A program made the translations under genes and the position numbers. From Candidatus Gastranaerophilales bacterium (lineage in GTDB: Bacteria; Cyanobacteriota; Vampirovibrionia; Gastranaerophilales; Gastranaerophilaceae), in assembly GCA_944324135.1 (NCBI GenBank), contig CALUVE010000018.1, positions 1 to 42,702 of the forward strand: DNA of 42,702 nt, in the 5' to 3' direction. The notes beneath the pieces were generated by a model. The model worked only from the letters and a program-made list of their open reading frames with translations. It did not search any database and had not been told where the DNA came from. Position 1 is the stretch's first letter, and each line of letters begins with the position of its first letter. Below are positions 4,567 to 25,341 of the stretch, one piece after another.

Positions 4567-5670
4567 CTATTGTTTTGCATAAATCAGGCATGCTGCAAGT
4601 TTATCTACAGTATTCTTTTTCAAAAACTTTAAAACAACTCCTGAATAGGTAGTTATAAGCATTGTCAGTACAAAGTACAGGTAAGTGTTTTGGACAGGGT
4701 TATAAATCCAGTAGATGTCGTGTGCCTCTATCATATTTAGCGGAAGTTTGTTGATTGTAAGAATTGTTATTGTCATCAAATACATAACAAGCAGATGGTT
4801 TGCCATAATGTGATAGGTGTTTTCGCCGATTAGTTTAAGGAATTTGATATCCTTAATGTATTTGTAAGTAACATCAATAAACAACAGAGAAAACCAAATA
4901 CCGGTCAAACTTGTGAGTATCGGAACTATTATCTGGTCGTCAAATCTTGCCCATACAAGCACATAACTTAGGCCGATGCCGTGTTCATGAGTGTAATCTC
5001 TGTTGAAGTGCCAGAGTATTGCCTGTAGACAAATTACAAATCCTGCAGCTTTCGGAGAAAAAATGTTGTAATTGCCGCGGATTTTGTGGACGTATAAATG
5101 TCCAAGATACACAAAAAATATAGAAAACATCGTTCTTATTAAAACCAAGTTCCATGATGAAATGTCAATAACCTTGGAAAGCGGGATTGCGGAAAGTCCA
5201 AGTATGGTGTAGAAAATCCCTCTGACAATTTCGCTGGTGTTACGGAAAAATTTCTGGCAGAAAAGAAACACAATCATTGTTATGAATAACTGCGGCACAA
5301 ACCACATCGGACAGGACAAATCAAACTGATGACCGTTTAAAAACGGAGTGAGGAAAAAGTTTTTCCAGCTTAATTCCATCCCCCAGAACTTCCCTGTGTA
5401 TTTTGCGATAATTATTGTTATCACCATATAAAATGCTGAATACAGATAATATAATACAAGCAGACTTTTGATTCGTCTTTTTATAAAATCAAAAACAGCA
5501 TCAAGATATTTGTCTTTAAACAACATTCCGGAGATAAAAAAGAATAAAGACAGCTGGAACGAATACGGCGGAAACATTCCGAACAGTGAAAATTCCAGAT
5601 GTCCTGAAACGACAAGAGAAATTGCCAGACATTTTAAGAGGTTGATTTTATCCGAAAAAACTTTGTCCAT
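4567..5670 (-). CDS. Acyltransferase family 3 membrane protein (OafA-like)
   Basis: 367 residues with about ten hydrophobic spans. It begins with the family's typical NLLKCLAISLVVSGHLEF, including the conserved His in the first span, and continues with FFFISGMLFKDKY and a basic loop (FIKRRIKSLL). This is the Pfam Acyl_transf_3 architecture. Members move acetyl or other acyl groups across the inner membrane onto sugars of surface glycans. It lacks an appended SGNH domain, so a partner might be needed for some reactions. No specific acceptor can be deduced. The ribosome site is weak (AGG about 12 bases upstream). Confidence 0.85.
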   Translation of the reverse strand: MDKVFSDKINLLKCLAISLVVSGHLEFSLFGMFPPYSFQLSLFFFISGMLFKDKYLDAVFDFIKRRIKSLLVLYYLYSAFYMVITIIIAKYTGKFWGMELSWKNFFLTPFLNGHQFDLSCPMWFVPQLFITMIVFLFCQKFFRNTSEIVRGIFYTILGLSAIPLSKVIDISSWNLVLIRTMFSIFFVYLGHLYVHKIRGNYNIFSPKAAGFVICLQAILWHFNRDYTHEHGIGLSYVLVWARFDDQIIVPILTSLTGIWFSLLFIDVTYKYIKDIKFLKLIGENTYHIMANHLLVMYLMTITILTINKLPLNMIEAHDIYWIYNPVQNTYLYFVLTMLITTYSGVVLKFLKKNTVDKLAACLIYAKQ

Positions 5671-5833
5671 AATTGTTTAACCTTTATGTAGTTATATGAT
5701 AATATTTTTATCCAATCCTAAAAGTTGCACGTGATGTGCCTTTTAGGCTGGTTTGAATCGTCCGGTACAATTTGTTCAAACATATTTTATTATAGCCGGC
5801 GGAAATTTTTTATACAGAGAATTCTCCGGCATT

Positions 5834-5848
5834 TTTACAATTTGTAAA
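5834..5848. promoter_or_regulatory. 15-bp palindrome upstream of the phosphate operon
   Basis: TTTACAA-T-TTGTAAA, perfect 7-base arms around one central T, about 65 bases before the DUF47 start and within a 243-base gap between divergent genes. It has the form of a dimeric repressor or activator operator. It does not resemble the E. coli PhoB box as I know it. I see nothing else definite in this gap. Confidence 0.45.
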
Positions 5849-5913
5849 TAAATACTATGCAAAGAGCTTTGTTTTAAGTATGCTATCCGTGAGTATGAAT
5901 AAGGAGATTTATC

Positions 5914-6555
5914 ATGCCTAAATTTAATTTGATGTCTTATATTATGCCGCCTGAGGACAAAATGTTCTTTACTTATTTTCAGGATAGTGCAGAAATTTGC
6001 AGAAAGTCAGCCTGTCTTTATGACAATATTATGCATAATCAGTTGACCGATGAGTATAAAGAAAAAGCTTTGAAATACAAGAAAAAAGGAAAACTTTCTT
6101 ATAAAGCTATTCTTAAACAGTTGAACAAAAGTTTTATAACCCCGCTGGAGAGAGAAGATATTCAAACCATTGCGGTTCAGTTAAATAAAATCAATAAAAA
6201 AATTATTAAAGCCTGTCTTAATTTGGAAGTGTATAGATTAAATAATTACACTGATGAAATGAAAGAACAGGCTTTAACTTTGGTTCAGGCAACCGAAAAA
6301 CTCGGAGAAATTGTTAAAATTTTCAAAAAAGTTTCCGATGTCGAAAAAATTACAAAACTGAATATTGAAATGAAAGAAATAGAAGCACACGGTGATGAAA
6401 TTCACCGCCGCGCAATGAGTAATCTCTTCTCAGGCAAGTATGAAGCTATTGAAGTTATTAAACTCAGAGATATGTACAAAGAAATTGAAAATGCTTTTGA
6501 TGCGTGCTTCTATGTAACAGACACTATTTTGAATGTCGTATTAAAACAATCGTAG
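5914..6555 (+). CDS. DUF47 / PhoU-like accessory protein of PiT
   Basis: 213 residues, almost entirely charged amphipathic helices, matching the DUF47 (TIGR00153) family of PhoU-like four-helix bundles. The family is routinely encoded just before a PiT phosphate permease and is thought to control or assemble it. The MPKFNLMSYIMPPEDKMFF start and the motif EAHGDEIHRRAMSNLF, equivalent to the family's metal-binding E-x-x-x-D segment, support this. AAGGAG lies seven bases before the ATG. The stop is 7 bases from the permease start, so the two are co-transcribed. Confidence 0.92.
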   Translation: MPKFNLMSYIMPPEDKMFFTYFQDSAEICRKSACLYDNIMHNQLTDEYKEKALKYKKKGKLSYKAILKQLNKSFITPLEREDIQTIAVQLNKINKKIIKACLNLEVYRLNNYTDEMKEQALTLVQATEKLGEIVKIFKKVSDVEKITKLNIEMKEIEAHGDEIHRRAMSNLFSGKYEAIEVIKLRDMYKEIENAFDACFYVTDTILNVVLKQS

Positions 6556-15644: not shown

Positions 15645-15710
15645 AGATAAAAATAGCAAATTGTATAAAAACTGCTCAACCGGATAATAGATGCTGCCTT
15701 TTTTAAATTC

Positions 15711-15716
15711 TATTAT
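15711..15716 (+). promoter_or_regulatory. Candidate -10 of the autotransporter gene
   Basis: TATTAT, seven bases before the ATG at 15724, with no Shine-Dalgarno. It agrees with the start that gives a proper signal peptide and predicts a leaderless mRNA. No -35 match. Confidence 0.4.
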
Positions 15717-15723
15717 CATTTGT

Positions 15724-18594
15724 ATGAAAAATCACAGAAAAAATTTATTAACCATAATTGCACTGTTGACCATAACATCAGCTGTATATGCAGAAGATAT
15801 TCAGGTTGCGACGTTTAGAGAACTGATGGATTCTCGGCCTGCAAGCGGAGATATTTTGCAATTTACTGATAATATGATTTCTGATGCGACGATAGGTCGT
15901 AATTTTTACAATCTTGATATTACATTTGCGGGCAACAATTATTCTATTAACGGCAGAAGTGTATTTGGCGGTTTTGTATTGAATGAGGACAGTTTATTCA
16001 ACCGTGTCAGAATTTTGAATTGTAAAGGTCAGGAATACAACAGGTCAAATTTTGCGGGCGCGATATATAACAGCGGAGGAAATTTAGAGATAACAGAATC
16101 AGCGTTCAGCGGGAATTTTACAGATGCGGCGGGGTTCAACTTCGGGGTTGGCGGAGCTGTTTATAATTTGAACGGCGGGGAAATAACGGTGAACAGTACT
16201 CTGTTTGAAAATAATTATTCAAACGGAGCATCTTCTTACGGCGGCGCTGTTGCAAACGGTTACCGGCAGGGCGCAAAAGCGGTGATGACTGTTAATAATT
16301 CAATTTTTCAGAATAATTATTCATACGGTTCTTTGATTCCGCATGGAGGTGCGCTTTATAATAACGGAGATATCACGGTGAACGGAACAAAGTTTACCGG
16401 CAATTATTCGGAAGGCCCTGAGGGTGCCTATGCTTATGGCGGTGCTTTTACAAATGAGGGTACCGGAGAGATTTCAGACAGCAGTTTTTCAGGGAATTAT
16501 GCCACTGCCGGCAACTATTCTCTTGCCTATGGCGGAGTTATAAGTAATACTGCAAATCTTGATATTAAAAATTCGACTTTTGAGGACAATTATGCCAAAA
16601 GCGGTACTGATGCCAGGACGGCTGGCGGAAGTATTTATAATTCAGGAACAATAACTATTGAGTCCGGATTGTTTGAAAATAATTCCGCAATCGGAGGGGC
16701 GGAAGCCTCAGGCGGTGCGTTGTATAACGAGACCGGCGGGATTATGACGGTAAAAGATACGGATTTTAATTCAAATAAAGTTTCGGGTAATGATGGCGAT
16801 GGGGGCGCTGTATATAATCTCGGTACATTGACGATTGATGGCGGAGCTTTAAACGGGAATTCCGTGAGCGGTACCAATAGCGCTTATGGCGGAGCATTAT
16901 ATAACGGAGCAAGCGGCAGTGCCACGATTACGGATGCAATACTAAAAGATAACAGTCTGGCTTCTTCAAGCGGAGAGGGCGGAGCTGTTTATAATGCGGG
17001 GAAATTAACATTTGAAAATTCGGTTCTTGAAAATAATACTGACAGGAACGGTGAGCTTAATGATATTTATAATGACAACGGGACAATTGAATTTGCCGGT
17101 GGTGAAAATAATACAATCAAAAGCGGGATTTCGGGAACAGGTACTATTACAAAGACAGGGAGCGGGGTATTAAATCTCGGCGGAGTAAACAAAAATTTTA
17201 CGGGAAATTTTAATGTTGAGGAGGGAACGGTTTATCTTATTCCCGACAGCAGTTATTTTGCTGCTCAAAATACGGTGTTTGCAAATAATATTAACTTCGA
17301 TATGCAAAATAATGAAATCAACAATATAAATTTCGGGAATTTGACGTTGAACGGCAGGACAAATATTCAGGCGGATTTAGATTTTAATACGCGGGTGATG
17401 GATAGAATAAATGCTTCAAGTGTCACAGGGAACGGTGAACTTTTTGTGAACAGTCTTGAGATGAAAGGGGCGCCGTCCGGCAGTAGTTTTTCTATACCTT
17501 TTGCAGACAGTGTCTTGAAAGACTACGTAGATTATGACCCTGTAAATATCAAAACTCCTATATATAATTATCGTGCAAGTTATAATTCTTCAAGCGGTGA
17601 TTTTGATTTTACAAGGGAAAGCTTTAATACCGCGATATTTGCACCGGCGGTAGCTGCGCAGATAGCGGGTTATTTAACCCAGCTGGAGACATACAAAAAT
17701 ATTTTTGCAAATCTTGATATGGTGATGATTACACCGCCGGAGCGCCGGGGAAGTTTTTCGCTGGAAAATAAAACAGCATTTAATGGCGGACAGTTTGCGT
17801 TTTCACCTCTGGTGATGCCGGAAGAACGAGCCGGTGTATGGATAAAACCTTATACCACATTTGAAAATGTTCCGCTAAAAAACGGGCCAAAAGTTTCTAA
17901 TGTCAGTTACGGCACCTTGCTTGGAGGCGAAAGCGGGTTGAAAAAACTTCCAAAAGGCTGGTATGCTTTGTACGGAGCTTATGCTGCTTATAACGGTTCT
18001 CATCAGAGCTATGACAAAAACAGTATTTACAATAACGGCGGTTTGATAGGCATGGATACGGTATTTTATAGAGGGAAATTTTTTTCTATCTGGACTGCAA
18101 ATGCAGGAGCAAATGTTGCCGAAGCTAATACACTTGACGGGCGGGATGAATTTACAATGTTGAACACCGGTATTGCACAAAAAACCGGATATAATTTTGA
18201 AACTTTAGACAGAAGATTAATAATCCAGCCGTCTTTAATTACTTCATATTCTTTTATAAACACATTTGATTATACAACCTCCTCAAATGTTGATATAAAT
18301 TCAGACCCGCTGCACGCAATCCATATTGAACCGCAGATAAAATTTATCGGAAATTTCAAAGATTATCTCCAGCCGTATTTGAGTGTGTCAATGGTCTGGA
18401 ACATAATAGACGATACAAAATTCAGAGCAAACGATGTTTACCTTCCTGAATTGTCTGTAAAACCGTTTGTGCAGTATGGTGTCGGTGTTCAGAAACGATG
18501 GGGGGACAGACTGACAGGATTTTTAGAGGGAATGATTAGAAACGGAGGCAGAAACGGTATTGCTCTGATGTTCGGCTTCAGAATCAGTATTTAG
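15724..18594 (+). CDS. Autotransporter adhesin with Pmp-like GGA(I/V)/FxxN repeats
   Basis: 956 residues from ATG 15724. MKNHRKNLLTIIALLTITSA then VYAED is a clear Sec signal peptide; the upstream in-frame ATG at 15691 would spoil it. Residues about 100-460 are about eleven imperfect repeats, each with G-G-A-[IVLF]-[YTA]-N and, some 20 residues away, F-x-x-N. These are the hallmarks of the beta-helical passenger of chlamydial polymorphic membrane proteins. From about 690 the sequence alternates like an outer-membrane beta-barrel (GVWIKPYTTFE, KPFVQYGVGVQKRW) and ends RNGIALMFGFRISI, as expected of an autotransporter domain, though Ile rather than Phe is the final residue. It is probably surface-exposed and adhesive. 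It overlaps no neighbour but ends 11 bases into the convergent HNH gene. Confidence 0.88.
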   Translation: MKNHRKNLLTIIALLTITSAVYAEDIQVATFRELMDSRPASGDILQFTDNMISDATIGRNFYNLDITFAGNNYSINGRSVFGGFVLNEDSLFNRVRILNCKGQEYNRSNFAGAIYNSGGNLEITESAFSGNFTDAAGFNFGVGGAVYNLNGGEITVNSTLFENNYSNGASSYGGAVANGYRQGAKAVMTVNNSIFQNNYSYGSLIPHGGALYNNGDITVNGTKFTGNYSEGPEGAYAYGGAFTNEGTGEISDSSFSGNYATAGNYSLAYGGVISNTANLDIKNSTFEDNYAKSGTDARTAGGSIYNSGTITIESGLFENNSAIGGAEASGGALYNETGGIMTVKDTDFNSNKVSGNDGDGGAVYNLGTLTIDGGALNGNSVSGTNSAYGGALYNGASGSATITDAILKDNSLASSSGEGGAVYNAGKLTFENSVLENNTDRNGELNDIYNDNGTIEFAGGENNTIKSGISGTGTITKTGSGVLNLGGVNKNFTGNFNVEEGTVYLIPDSSYFAAQNTVFANNINFDMQNNEINNINFGNLTLNGRTNIQADLDFNTRVMDRINASSVTGNGELFVNSLEMKGAPSGSSFSIPFADSVLKDYVDYDPVNIKTPIYNYRASYNSSSGDFDFTRESFNTAIFAPAVAAQIAGYLTQLETYKNIFANLDMVMITPPERRGSFSLENKTAFNGGQFAFSPLVMPEERAGVWIKPYTTFENVPLKNGPKVSNVSYGTLLGGESGLKKLPKGWYALYGAYAAYNGSHQSYDKNSIYNNGGLIGMDTVFYRGKFFSIWTANAGANVAEANTLDGRDEFTMLNTGIAQKTGYNFETLDRRLIIQPSLITSYSFINTFDYTTSSNVDINSDPLHAIHIEPQIKFIGNFKDYLQPYLSVSMVWNIIDDTKFRANDVYLPELSVKPFVQYGVGVQKRWGDRLTGFLEGMIRNGGRNGIALMFGFRISI
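16050..17060 (+). repeat. In-frame Pmp-type repeat region of the autotransporter
   Basis: About eleven degenerate coding repeats of 75-100 bases. Each encodes a G-G-A-[IV]-[YTA]-N element (GGAVYN, GGALYN, GGAFTN and similar). The DNA copies such as GGCGGAGC(T/G)...TATAA are similar enough for recombination, so passenger length may vary between strains. Confidence 0.75.
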
Positions 18595-19810
18595 AATAAT
18601 TTTGGTTGATTAAGAATTTAATCTGTTCAAAATCGTTTGTGCTTATCTTTAAAAAACGTTCGTCGTTCAAACCGGTTTTCAGCACCTGTAAAAATTCTGA
18701 AAAATCATAAATGGTTTCAACCTCGGAATTTTCAATATTTTCTTTTATTCTGTCAGTTTTTGATAATAGTAATAATTTTTGGTAGGATTTGCAGGTTTCA
18801 TCGGTTTTATTTTTAGGATGCGCAAAATTCAGGTGCTGCGTAGGAGTGAGCGCAATAAGATTTTCAAGACAATAGCTTATTTCAGGGAATTCACTTTTCG
18901 GGAAAATATGGTGAATTTGAGCCGCATCTCCACTGTTGTATTCATCAATGTGCTCGCTCAGCCCGTCTCTGTATTGATTATTGAATTTTTTGAGGTAATT
19001 TACGGCTTTGTTAGATAAATATTTGTAATAAGCCTCAGTTGAATATTTAAGCCCGGAATTTTTGTCGTGTTCTTTTCTTGTAATCTGTTTTGGTTTGTCA
19101 GAATAGGTGTCTCTAAAGTTGTACCGGTTGTACATAAGCATATCATAGGTTATGTTATCTTTAGATAGATTACCGTGTTCAGTGCCTTTTAAGCCTTTTG
19201 AGTAGGCGAGAGGATTTAAAACTTTTATAAAAATACGGTTGCATTCTGTTTCCCCGTTTATCGGGGTGTTATTTATAATAAAGTCTGAAAAACCCTGTTT
19301 AAGATTTTTGTAGCTGTCTTTATTCTGTTCTTTGAAAAAATCATTGAATAAATCTATTATACCGCTGTCTTTCAATGTTTTTTCAATATAAATTTGTAAG
19401 AATAGAAGTGAGTTTTTTTCTCTTAAAGAAATATATTCTAACAGGTCTCTATTGAGAACGTGATAGAAATTCCGTCCGCCTTTTTTTATTTTTCCGAGTA
19501 TGCCGGCAGCCGCAAATAATTCCATTGGCTGCTGAAAAAATTTGTCATATTCATTTTTTGCAGCATTTGAAGAAACATCAGGTTTTTTAAAGATATTTTC
19601 AATGTTTTCTACAGTATACGGGCAGAGCCAGATGTCTTTTGTTGTAAAAATTTTGCCGGGTTCATTTTCTGTGAAATTTAAAATGCAGTCTGCAATTGCC
19701 ATAGTAACATCAAAGGTGCATTTCTGGTCAATCCAGCGGGCATTGCCTGTTTTTTTGATGTCATAATTATGTGTATTGCAAAATTCAATTATATCATTTG
19801 TGGTCAGCAT
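18584..19810 (-). CDS. HNH restriction endonuclease of a type II-like system
   Basis: 408 residues. The C-terminal third carries an HNH (beta-beta-alpha-metal) site: QIHHIFPKSEFPE (H300, H301), then ENLIALTPTQHLNFAHP (N317, H326, H331). No zinc-binding Cys pairs surround it. The N-terminal 280 residues are of unknown fold and probably recognise DNA. The ATG follows the methyltransferase stop by four bases with GAGG upstream, so it is the second gene of the restriction-modification operon. Restriction activity is inferred from this pairing and not from overall similarity to a known enzyme. Its 3' end overlaps the convergent autotransporter gene by 11 bases. Confidence 0.82.
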   Translation of the reverse strand: MLTTNDIIEFCNTHNYDIKKTGNARWIDQKCTFDVTMAIADCILNFTENEPGKIFTTKDIWLCPYTVENIENIFKKPDVSSNAAKNEYDKFFQQPMELFAAAGILGKIKKGGRNFYHVLNRDLLEYISLREKNSLLFLQIYIEKTLKDSGIIDLFNDFFKEQNKDSYKNLKQGFSDFIINNTPINGETECNRIFIKVLNPLAYSKGLKGTEHGNLSKDNITYDMLMYNRYNFRDTYSDKPKQITRKEHDKNSGLKYSTEAYYKYLSNKAVNYLKKFNNQYRDGLSEHIDEYNSGDAAQIHHIFPKSEFPEISYCLENLIALTPTQHLNFAHPKNKTDETCKSYQKLLLLSKTDRIKENIENSEVETIYDFSEFLQVLKTGLNDERFLKISTNDFEQIKFLINQNYSKY

Positions 19811-19814
19811 TTTA

Positions 19815-22316
19815 TTACCTCTTTTTACCGAAATAATAAATTGAATTTTTGTCTATATTCAAAGAACGTGTGCTTAAATTCCGTGCGATGCTGTAGAATT
19901 CCCGGAATTCTTCTCCTGAAAAATATTTTAAATCTTCGTCAGTTATTTTTACATTTTTCTTTAATTCTAATATTGCAACAGAGCCGTTAACAATAGTATT
20001 TTTCGGCTTTTTGATAACCCGCGGATAATAAGTCATATTAGGACTCAAAAATACGTCGTCCCGTTCATAAAATTGCATTACTGAAAAATTTTTGTCAGGA
20101 CTGTTCAAATATGAGTCATAATCTTTTAAGTGCTCAATTTTGCTGCCGTCCTGTTTGATATTTCTTGATTTAATAACCCAGACTTGACCGTCAGAGACAA
20201 GGTTTTTGTTAGTAATTTGTCTGTCTCTGAAGCAGTTGAATATATCAAATTTCATTTTGGAGGCTGTTTTGTTAAACTCTTTGTTTCTATAGATAAGCCA
20301 GTTTGGAAATTTGGAATCAGTAAGTTCTTTCTGGTCAATGATGTTGGTGTAATCATGTGTCACAGAAAAACATTCTGTTTTTTGGGGCTTTAATCTGGTA
20401 TTTACAATCAAGCAGATGGTCTCAATCAAAACTCCTTTGAAACCTTTTTCGCCAAAATCAATTATATTAGAAATTTTATATTTGTCTGTAAGCTCCCTTG
20501 CATAAGCAAAATCTGTATTATGCAGAAAATATTTAGGAAGAATCAGACAAACATTATCAGCTGATGTCAGAGCTTTTTCTAAAAAGAAAGCAGATATATT
20601 GTTCGCATTGAAATCGTTAAAGGTTTCTCTGTATTTTTTTAACAGTTTTTTGTCTGTAATTTTTTTGAACGGAGGATTTCCTATTACAATATCATAATGA
20701 GTATCAGATTCATTAAGCAAAAAGTCTTTGCAGTAGAGATTTAATTTAATATTGGACGGGATTCCGTCATTTAAATATAAAATTTTTAAAACTTCCAGCG
20801 AAAATTTATCTATGTCAAAAACATCTATAACCAAATTTTTATTAATTCCGTATTTAGCCGCAATCATCGGAAGAAAATTTCCTACCCCCACGGCAGGTTC
20901 TAAAATTTTTATGGTTTCATTTTTTATATCCGGCAATTTTTTATAGATTTGAAACAGAGTTTTTTTATCGGTGTAGAACGCTGCATTTTCTGTTCTCTGC
21001 GTGTTTGCAAGTTCTGCAAATCTTGCAAGAGTTGCAGGCAGATATTTTTCTTTATTTGTTTTCAGAAATTTTATGAGATTTTCCGGTTTTTCCAGATTAT
21101 TTTTTTTAATTTGATTTTTTATTTCTTTATCCGATAAATATTCAGAATCCAGATAGTTCTTTATTTTTTGTGCAATATTGTATAAGACTGCGGTCGGAAC
21201 AGCTTCTCCGATACTTTGTCTTATATTCATATCATTTTTTTTCAAAAAGGCTTTCTTTTCTTCAAGCGAAAGGGTGTTTAATTCGTCTTCATTTAATTCA
21301 CTCCACTTGAAAGTCGATGGAATAGACATAAATGTCATAAGTTCGCGAATGCTGAAAACTCTGTCATCTTGCGGATGAACGGTGTTCTGGCTTGCTAAGA
21401 TATCGTTGCGGGTATGGATGCACGGCGGAACTTTATCCCAGTACTGCCTTTTATATTTATCCCCGTTTTTATTAACATTAAGAACAATTTTTCCGTCAAC
21501 AATTGTATGTGGACGTTTGTTTATATCTTTGTTGTCATAGGCGGATTCACCCTCTTTGATATCTGCAATCCAGGGGCGCATATTAGGAGCATATTCTCTG
21601 AAAAAATGATAAATATCCCCGGTTGAAATTTCACCCATTTGGCTCAGGCGCGGCAGGTCATAAATTAATTCCCGCATAGTTTTTTCTTCTCTGTAATCAG
21701 GGAAGAGTTCAAACGGCAATATTTCATCTGAATAATCTTTTCTCACCCCGATGACAAGGGTTCTTGTTCTGCTTGAATTTGACCCGTAATTTTTAAAATT
21801 CATTATTTTATCGGCATAGTCATAATCTCGGGATAAATTATCAAAAATTGCCTCTGATATAGTTTTTTGGATTCCTTTATCATAGCATTTTGTTTTCATA
21901 AATGCTTGAACGTTTTCAAATATAAAAAATTTAGGCTTAATTTCGTTAATAATGTCAATTGCCTCTACAACAAGAGAGTTTCTATGTATTTCATAAGAAG
22001 TTTTTTTGTGGTTAGCAACGGACATCCCCTGACACGGCGGGGTTGCGATAACTACATCAATATCTTTTATCTGTTCTTTTTTCTTGTAGAATTCAATTTG
22101 GTTAAAGAGTTTTGCTCTTACGTCAGGTGCAGTTATGTCCCCCGGAATATAACCGGAGTCATAGCTGCATTTATTGTTAAATTTTTGGATATTTAAACGA
22201 CGCTCAATAAGTTCATTTGTTGCAACGCAGTCAAAATCGTTTTGTTTGAATCCGTAACATCCGACTCCGGCGCTGCTGAATAAACTTATATATGTCTTTT
22301 TGTCTTTCTTCCCCAT
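19815..22316 (-). CDS. Bifunctional m5C + m6A DNA methyltransferase
   Basis: 833 residues from ATG 22316. Residues 1-395 are a complete C5-cytosine methyltransferase: motif I SLFSSAGVGCYGF (11-23), motif IV TPPCQG with catalytic C95, motif VI ENV (134-136), motif VIII SSRTRTLVIGVR, motif IX IRELMTFM and motif X SIGEAVP (368-374). A Lys-rich linker leads to a second domain with the order EPAVGVGNF (473-481, SAM binding) then NPPF (547-550, target base) then a C-terminal recognition region, as in gamma-class (TaqI-like) N6-adenine methyltransferases. Both catalytic motifs are intact. Next to an HNH nuclease, one enzyme modifying C and A suggests protection of an asymmetric site, with a different base marked on each strand. 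There is no Shine-Dalgarno; see the abutting promoter. Confidence 0.9.
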   Translation of the reverse strand: MGKKDKKTYISLFSSAGVGCYGFKQNDFDCVATNELIERRLNIQKFNNKCSYDSGYIPGDITAPDVRAKLFNQIEFYKKKEQIKDIDVVIATPPCQGMSVANHKKTSYEIHRNSLVVEAIDIINEIKPKFFIFENVQAFMKTKCYDKGIQKTISEAIFDNLSRDYDYADKIMNFKNYGSNSSRTRTLVIGVRKDYSDEILPFELFPDYREEKTMRELIYDLPRLSQMGEISTGDIYHFFREYAPNMRPWIADIKEGESAYDNKDINKRPHTIVDGKIVLNVNKNGDKYKRQYWDKVPPCIHTRNDILASQNTVHPQDDRVFSIRELMTFMSIPSTFKWSELNEDELNTLSLEEKKAFLKKNDMNIRQSIGEAVPTAVLYNIAQKIKNYLDSEYLSDKEIKNQIKKNNLEKPENLIKFLKTNKEKYLPATLARFAELANTQRTENAAFYTDKKTLFQIYKKLPDIKNETIKILEPAVGVGNFLPMIAAKYGINKNLVIDVFDIDKFSLEVLKILYLNDGIPSNIKLNLYCKDFLLNESDTHYDIVIGNPPFKKITDKKLLKKYRETFNDFNANNISAFFLEKALTSADNVCLILPKYFLHNTDFAYARELTDKYKISNIIDFGEKGFKGVLIETICLIVNTRLKPQKTECFSVTHDYTNIIDQKELTDSKFPNWLIYRNKEFNKTASKMKFDIFNCFRDRQITNKNLVSDGQVWVIKSRNIKQDGSKIEHLKDYDSYLNSPDKNFSVMQFYERDDVFLSPNMTYYPRVIKKPKNTIVNGSVAILELKKNVKITDEDLKYFSGEEFREFYSIARNLSTRSLNIDKNSIYYFGKKR

Positions 22317-22428: not shown

Positions 22429-25341
22429 ATGGTTTTTTATGCTGATTTACATATCCATTCAAAGTATTCGCGTGCGACAAGCAAGAGCTGTAATCTGGAG
22501 GAGCTTGCTCTCTGGGCGCAGAAGAAAGGTTTGAGCGTAATTTCAACAGGTGATTTTACACATCCTGCGTGGTTTAAGGAAATACAAGAAAAACTTATAC
22601 CAGCAGGTAACGGTGTTTTCAGGCTTAAACCGGAGATTGAAAAATCGGTTTTGCAATCAGGCGGAAACCCTGTATATTTTCTTCTCTCTGTTGAAATCTC
22701 TACGATTTACAAAAAAGGTGACAAAACAAGAAAAGTACATCACGTTTGTTTTGTGCCGGATATGGAAGCTGCCGGAAATTTCAGGAACAAACTCGGTGCT
22801 ATAGGAAACATTAATTCAGACGGGCGTCCTATTCTTGGGCTTGATTCAAGGAATCTTCTGGAGACCGTGCTGGAATCAGGCGAGGGTTCTTATATAATTC
22901 CGGCACACATCTGGACTCCGTGGTTTTCGGTTCTGGGGTCAAAGTCGGGGTTTGATTCTATAGAAGAATGCTATGGCGATCTTGCGGATAATATTTTTGC
23001 TGTTGAAACAGGGCTTTCATCTGACCCTGAAATGAACTGGAAAGTTTCAAAACTCGACAGATTCAGGCTTGTTTCAAACTCTGATGCGCACTCCCCGTCG
23101 AAGTTAGCGCGGGAAGCTACAGTTTTTGATACCAACCCTGACTATTTCAGCATTATGAATGCGCTCAAAACCGGAGACGGTTACACCGGCACTGTGGAAT
23201 TCTTTCCGGAAGAGGGAAAATACCACGAGGACGGACACAGAAAATGTAATGTCTGCCTGACGCCTGAGGAAACAAAACAATTAGGCGGAATTTGCCCTGT
23301 TTGCGGCAAACCGCTCACCATAGGGGTTTCATACAGAGTTCACGAACTCTCTGACAGACCATTCAACTCGGATTTCAAACCGCAGACAGGCGGAAAAGTT
23401 TACAGCCTGGTTCCTCTGCAGGAAATTATCTCTGAAATCCTGCAGGTCGGAACCTCCAGCAAATCTGTCGTCACGGAATATGAAAGACTTATACATAAAC
23501 TTGGGTCGGAACTTTCTATTTTACAGGATGTTCCGGTGGATGAAATAACAAAAGAGTCAACACTACTCGGGGAAGCAATTTCCCGTCTCAGAGCCGGAAA
23601 AGTTATCAAACAAGCAGGTTATGACGGTGAATATGGTGTTATCAGATTGTTTGAGGACGGTGAATTAAACAAGAAAAAATCCGCAGTTAATCTTAAGCTT
23701 AATATTGACATTCCTAAGGTGAGAGAGAATAAGAGTACAAAGACCTGGAATATCCCTCAGGCTGTGCGGGAAATAGCCGCAGAAGAACAGAAAAAATCAG
23801 GCGGGCTTGATGAATATCAGCAGGCTGCAGTGGAAAATCTTAACAATCAAATTTTGATTATAGCAGGGCCCGGTTCAGGTAAAACAACCGTTTTGACGCG
23901 GCGAATTGCACATCTTATAAATGATGCCGTCGTCTCGCCGGAAAACTGTCTTGCGATTACTTTCACGCGCCGTGCCGCAGAAGAAATGAGAGAAAGACTC
24001 TCCCGTCTTGTTCCTGATAATTTTACTAAAATCAATATTCATACATTTCATTCATTGTGTTTTTCAATTCTCAGGGAAAATTTGGAAAAGGCGGGGTTTT
24101 CCGGTGGCTTTTCAGTAATCAGCGAACAGGAAAAATCACTTTATAAAGATGGAGAACTTCCTGAAAATGCTCTGACTTTTGACGATTTAATCACTTTTAC
24201 AGTCAAATTGTTTGAGGAGTATCCGGAGATTCTTACAGCTTATCAAAACCGTTATAAATACGTTTCAGTTGATGAGTATCAGGATATTGACACTTACCAG
24301 TACAAACTTATACGTTTGTTAGTCTCTGCAGATGGTAATATTTATGCAATCGGCGACCCTAATCAGGCTATATACGGATTTCGCGGCGGCAGTTCAAAAT
24401 TCTTTAACAACTTTAAAGAGGATTATAAAAATGTCGAAATAATTAATTTGAAAAACAACTACCGCTCCACTGAAAGTATCGTGAACGCTTCCAATCAAAT
24501 GATTGATTGTTACAACACTGTTTCACGGTATGTGAAAGGACATGAAAAAATTACTATCCACACAGCTCCGACAGATAAGTCTGAGGGGGAATTTGTCGTG
24601 AGTACAATAGAAAATCTTATCGGCGGACATAGCTTTTTCTCAATAGATTCAGCACGTTCCGAGGGGCAGGAGGAGGATTATTCATTCTCTGATTTTGCGA
24701 TTCTTTATAGAACTTCTTCCCAGCTTAAGACATTGATTGAGGCTCTTAATCGCTCAGGTATGCCGTATGTCAAGTTTTCTGATGATTTGCTGTGTGATAA
24801 AAAAGAAATCCGCGATTTGATTAAGAATCTAAAAGAGGACATTCCTGTTTATGAACAGCTGGACAGTCTACCTGAAAGTATCAGAGGCGGGCTGGAAGAT
24901 TATATCCTGAAATATTTGAAAAAACTTTCAGAAAAATATCCGCACAAATCGGATTTTATCCATGAAGTTTCGCTGATAAAAGAATCAGATACGCTTGATA
25001 AGCGTGCCGACAGAATTTCTTTGATGACGCTGCATTCTTCAAAAGGTCTGGAATTCAGATGTGTATTTATTACAGGACTGGAGGACGGAATTCTTCCTTT
25101 TTATCGTGCAGAAACCCCAGAGGAAATCGAAGAAGAACGCAGACTTTTGTATGTCGGGATGACGCGTGCAAAACAAAGATTATTTTTAAGCCGTGCCGAA
25201 AAACGTTTTGTATACGGTGAGCTTAAACATCCTCTTATTTCTCCGTTTTTGAAAAAGATAGAAGAAGACCTGCTGAAACTTTCCAAATTTGAAAAACAAT
25301 ATCAGGAAAAAGAACACTCCGGTCAATTGTCTCTATTTTAG
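22429..25341 (+). CDS. EndoQ-like PHP nuclease fused to UvrD-type helicase, C-terminal clamp motif
   Basis: 970 residues. Part 1 (1 to about 410): a PHP metal site (H8, H10, H45, E89, H105, H160, E193, D219, H221) and a zinc finger C273-x2-C276...C289-x2-C292. This is the layout of endonuclease Q, which nicks DNA 5' of deaminated bases. Part 2 (about 458-930): a superfamily 1 helicase with Q motif DEYQQAA, Walker A GPGSGKTT (480-487), FTRRAAEEM, DEYQD (615-619), GDPNQAIYGFRGG, LKNNYRS, TLHSSKGLEF and YVGMTRAK. At about 510 residues it is short for UvrD and lacks much of the 1B/2B insertions. The last five residues, QLSLF, match the bacterial sliding-clamp-binding consensus. GAGGAG precedes the ATG by eight bases. 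The combined protein could find, nick, unwind and hand over damaged DNA at replication forks. Confidence 0.92.
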   Translation: MVFYADLHIHSKYSRATSKSCNLEELALWAQKKGLSVISTGDFTHPAWFKEIQEKLIPAGNGVFRLKPEIEKSVLQSGGNPVYFLLSVEISTIYKKGDKTRKVHHVCFVPDMEAAGNFRNKLGAIGNINSDGRPILGLDSRNLLETVLESGEGSYIIPAHIWTPWFSVLGSKSGFDSIEECYGDLADNIFAVETGLSSDPEMNWKVSKLDRFRLVSNSDAHSPSKLAREATVFDTNPDYFSIMNALKTGDGYTGTVEFFPEEGKYHEDGHRKCNVCLTPEETKQLGGICPVCGKPLTIGVSYRVHELSDRPFNSDFKPQTGGKVYSLVPLQEIISEILQVGTSSKSVVTEYERLIHKLGSELSILQDVPVDEITKESTLLGEAISRLRAGKVIKQAGYDGEYGVIRLFEDGELNKKKSAVNLKLNIDIPKVRENKSTKTWNIPQAVREIAAEEQKKSGGLDEYQQAAVENLNNQILIIAGPGSGKTTVLTRRIAHLINDAVVSPENCLAITFTRRAAEEMRERLSRLVPDNFTKINIHTFHSLCFSILRENLEKAGFSGGFSVISEQEKSLYKDGELPENALTFDDLITFTVKLFEEYPEILTAYQNRYKYVSVDEYQDIDTYQYKLIRLLVSADGNIYAIGDPNQAIYGFRGGSSKFFNNFKEDYKNVEIINLKNNYRSTESIVNASNQMIDCYNTVSRYVKGHEKITIHTAPTDKSEGEFVVSTIENLIGGHSFFSIDSARSEGQEEDYSFSDFAILYRTSSQLKTLIEALNRSGMPYVKFSDDLLCDKKEIRDLIKNLKEDIPVYEQLDSLPESIRGGLEDYILKYLKKLSEKYPHKSDFIHEVSLIKESDTLDKRADRISLMTLHSSKGLEFRCVFITGLEDGILPFYRAETPEEIEEERRLLYVGMTRAKQRLFLSRAEKRFVYGELKHPLISPFLKKIEEDLLKLSKFEKQYQEKEHSGQLSLF

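Follow-up and report, generated by a model that had tools for sequence, protein, structure and literature searches.

In this study, the window, which is the whole analysed stretch of 42,702 nucleotides from a Candidatus Gastranaerophilales bacterium, was observed to carry two adjacent genes that very probably form a type IIS restriction-modification (R-M) system of the HpyAV/Hin4II family, predicted to mark and cut DNA at CCTTC. Both genes lie on the minus strand, with the methylase gene (19815-22316) directly before the nuclease gene (18584-19810). Judged from their sequences, the two proteins have matches far beyond chance, and the pair is an R-M system of the HpyAV/Hin4II kind, ordinary and of an arrangement that is already known. 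The preliminary description had noticed complete m5C motifs including PCQG with C95, gamma-class m6A motifs with NPPF within the same 833-residue protein, and an HNH protein four bases away; all of these were confirmed by the translation, the profile matches and the alignments given below, with the gap between the genes at 19811-19814.

The methylase gene is a single intact open reading frame (ORF; 19815..22316, minus strand) encoding a fused m5C and m6A DNA methyltransferase of the M.HpyAV-like type, with a length of 833 aa from its ATG start. An in-frame TTG upstream would give 851 aa, and the ATG was preferred because the relatives start at about the same residue. The m5C domain comprises residues 8-390 (21147..22295, minus strand) and was recognised by Pfam as DNA_methylase PF00145 (E=1e-35, residues 9-386). 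Its PPCQG begins at residue 93 and makes the catalytic cysteine C95 (codon at 22032-22034, minus strand), and the presumed target-recognition region lies between motifs VIII and IX at residues 195-316 (21369..21734, minus strand). The gamma-class m6A domain, assigned from its motif order and an invariant NPP, comprises residues 441-833 (19818..20996, minus strand), with a Pfam match to the Eco57I methylase family PF07669 (E=1.8e-12, residues 529-624) and NPPF from residue 547 (20667-20678, minus strand). Both C95 and N547-P548-P549 are invariant in an alignment of 18 sequences. In the PADLOC profiles, MTase_II PDLC03277 (823 positions) matches the protein end to end (E=2.5e-259, residues 6-831 of 833), and the half-profiles PDLC03370 (387 positions; E=2.1e-151) and PDLC03382 (445 positions; E=1.9e-89) match its m5C and m6A halves, respectively. 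Since these profile lengths equal the published lengths of M.HpyAV (823), M1.Hin4II (387) and M2.Hin4II (445) (PMC2816704), the profiles were presumably built from those proteins.

The nuclease gene (18584..19810, minus strand) encodes an HpyAV-like HNH restriction endonuclease of 408 aa, with 44-61% identity to most of the relatives found. PADLOC REase_II PDLC03488 matches it end to end (E=9.6e-132), and apart from this HpyAV-like profile the PADLOC scan of the nuclease returned one weak candidate-defence profile and nothing else; the Pfam HNH match was weak and below the cut-off (E=0.049). The ORF is full length with every catalytic residue present. Residues H294, H295, N311 and H320 are important for cleavage by HpyAV (PMC2816704), and H300, H301, N317 and H326 of the window nuclease (18833..18913, minus strand) correspond to these published positions with identical spacing and an offset of six. 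The four residues are invariant in 23 sequences from Bacillota, Spirochaetota, Campylobacterota, Pseudomonadota, Deferribacterota and one archaeon. In the AlphaFold model (pLDDT 88), the first strand carries H300 and H301, N317 immediately precedes the second, and H326 lies in the helix that follows, so that the modelled placement is as expected for a beta-beta-alpha-metal site. A sequence search of solved structures with the nuclease returned only the HNH of pyocin S8 at chance level (E=0.63), and Foldseek with the model gave no match below E=0.2. The VIA structural comparison gave middling matches that are too weak as a basis for further inference, including the HNH region of EcoKMcrA (Z 6.1, rmsd 3.4 over 82 residues). 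In the same comparison, residues 32-119 of the model resemble winged-helix domains including that of DpnI (Z 6.6, rmsd 2.3 over 70 residues, 24% identity); this N-terminal part may be the DNA-recognition part, although scores of this size are common.

With reference to the literature, HpyAV of Helicobacter pylori 26695 (HP0053/HP0054) combines an HNH nuclease cutting CCTTC at 6/5 with a fused m5C-m6A methylase that precedes it, Hin4II is its isoschizomer with split methylases, and the methylases of ten further putative systems are all fused (PMC2816704). In SMRT sequencing of strain 26695, 91.9% of CCTTC sites carried m5C and 96.0% carried m6A on the opposite strand, and both marks were attributed to M.HpyAV (hp0054; PMC3936762). 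Our comparison with HpyAV was made through a Helicobacter bilis family orthologue (L057), the best scorer against the 823-position methylase profile (1869.5 bits), together with the published HpyAV residue numbers. The window pair shares with HpyAV a fused methylase of about 820-830 aa, an HNH nuclease of about 410-420 aa encoded immediately downstream in the same direction, the spacing of the four catalytic residues and similar recognition regions, although it belongs to another bacterial lineage and its methylase identity is about 49-50% as measured against L057. Hin4II likewise has homologous m5C and m6A domains with an HNH nuclease, and half-profiles of the Hin4II lengths match each half of the window methylase; it differs in having two separate methylase genes where the window has one fused gene.

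The identity to L057 is 55% in the m5C recognition region against 59 and 61% in the m5C core parts, and 45% in the C-terminal region of the m6A domain against 40% in the m6A core. Across the family, the m5C recognition region is 55-65% identical, as high as the core, whereas four m5C methylases from outside the family show 21-22% in this region and 27-29% in the core. Conservation on a par with that of the cores predicts that the target has not changed, so that the window system would target CCTTC as HpyAV does.

The genome of the host was further compared with this predicted target by counting pentamers against a Markov expectation in a sample of 400 kb, taken as 20 kb from each of 20 contigs. 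CCTTC/GAAGG was observed 127 times against 410 expected, and its ratio of 0.31 is the lowest of all 512 pentamers; within the window there were 11 against 40 expected. It is also the pentamer most depleted in the host relative to its genus, and two genus mates without the system, G082 and G130, have ratios of 0.95 and 0.83. In 16 further family genomes without a match to the system, the ratio ranged from 0.61 to 1.38 (samples of 20-40 kb). Across the family, carriage of the system and depletion of CCTTC go together only in part, as two genomes do not fit. In the genus mate G414, depletion is strong (ratio 0.39, rank 2 of 512), and neither a methylase nor a nuclease of the HpyAV type was found there. 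In G479, a contig of 6 kb bears a divergent pair, and CCTTC is not depleted (ratio 1.06). Past carriage in G414, and recent acquisition or assembly contamination in G479, would explain these misfits. The avoidance of CCTTC is support, not proof, for a CCTTC target. Among the other pentamers, CCAGG, of the CCWGG type, is strongly depleted across the genus and family, and GAGAC/GTCTC is also strongly depleted in several genomes, which hints at other widespread restriction specificities.

The methylase was found in only one other of 239 family genomes, and a search of the phylum with the nuclease profile gave one weak further match only (G177). The two genes that flank the pair in the window, one autotransporter-like and one for a helicase, are direct neighbours in G414, where R-M genes are absent from the space between them, and the arrangement in G082 is equally empty; in view of these two empty sites, the pair behaves like a unit that was acquired. 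The GC content of the pair is about 0.32-0.35, below most of its surroundings, and relatives of the system occur on plasmids of Acinetobacter and Psychrobacter as well as on contigs that are filed as phage. These sequence data are most simply read as horizontal acquisition. On one side of the pair, a plus-strand gene (15691-18594) encodes a protein of 967 aa that has repeated motifs of the GGAxYN type, whose C-terminal part resembles an autotransporter barrel and for which no Pfam match was found; its 3' end is convergent with that of the nuclease gene, and the two overlap by 11 bases. On the other side, a plus-strand gene (22429-25341) encodes a UvrD-type helicase that is kept at 84-86% in all three genus mates, with an N-terminal extension resembling a PHP domain and a C-x2-C zinc motif, which we take to be reminiscent of endonuclease Q.

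A tree of 24 methylases places the window methylase with the split forms of Acinetobacter, Weissella and Methanobrevibacter (support 100/99), and the remaining forms are fused. This suggests that these split forms derived from a fusion, in a tree that is midpoint-rooted and whose root is not established. Other arrangements were also noticed: in a Methanobrevibacter locus, the split m5C and m6A methylase genes overlap each other and are followed by two tandem HpyAV-like nuclease genes (L021:3684-4808 and 4962-6188), and in G479 (contig C114, L205:1617-3877) an HpyAV-like nuclease gene shares one base with the gene downstream of it, which encodes a second m5C methylase of unrelated appearance.

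In the mechanism that we propose, the fused methyltransferase would recognise the asymmetric CCTTC/GAAGG, its N-terminal half placing m5C on the CCTTC strand and its C-terminal gamma-class half placing m6A on the GAAGG strand. With each strand carrying its own mark, a newly replicated duplex could be marked again on the new strand. The one-metal HNH nuclease would bind CCTTC where it is unmodified and cleave about 6/5 bases downstream of it, by which incoming DNA would be destroyed. The preliminary description had proposed that one fusion marks both strands of an asymmetric site and that the nuclease may cut at a distance, which is very probably right in outline, as HpyAV does so (PMC2816704, PMC3936762). 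That the window pair is active, with the site and cut position of HpyAV, is likewise drawn by analogy and would follow from this kinship.

Three other readings were weighed against this one. It is unlikely that the nuclease lacks activity or expression and that the methylase works as a solitary epigenetic enzyme. Such losses do occur among relatives, as L057 has its nuclease frame broken into two parts and H. pylori G27 has a stop within the HNH site (PMC2816704), but the window nuclease shows no such lesion, keeping its full length and catalytic residues, and the strong site avoidance suggests restriction activity over time. Quite improbable is an HpyAV-family architecture with a changed site, either a relative of CCTTC or another pentamer; equally so is a move to a new asymmetric target, in which the methylase recognition regions and the nuclease would have changed together while the architecture was kept. 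An identity of about 50% leaves space for a shift, targets differing by one base in distant relatives were raised by the HpyAV authors (PMC2816704), and G414 avoids CCTTC without having the system. Against a changed site stand the conservation of both recognition regions, which is like that of the cores, and the rank of CCTTC as the pentamer that the host avoids most.

The Eco31I/Alw26I systems have an asymmetric site, of which one strand is marked by m5C and the other by m6A, and the Eco31I nuclease is of the HNH type, so that enzyme content and marks would agree with the window pair. The preliminary description had taken them as its comparator. Membership in this Eco31I/Alw26I/Esp3I group, with GTCTC-containing sites, is nevertheless extremely improbable, as the predicted site is a different one, no specific similarity appeared in the PADLOC profile scan, and both proteins match the HpyAV-like profiles from end to end; Eco31I was replaced by HpyAV/Hin4II as the nearest relative. 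GTCTC/GAGAC also does not rank among the twelve pentamers most depleted in the host, although it does so in some relatives. Among known nucleases, HpyAV is reportedly homologous to Hin4II alone (PMC2816704).

In summary, a type IIS system of the HpyAV/Hin4II family remains our reading of the pair, and conceptually it requires no new idea. In practical terms, it offers a further candidate for a type IIS enzyme that cuts CCTTC and whose methylase is encoded by a single gene. For the host, the avoidance of the predicted site supports past activity of the system, and for the family, one more lineage is added to a widely transferred restriction system.
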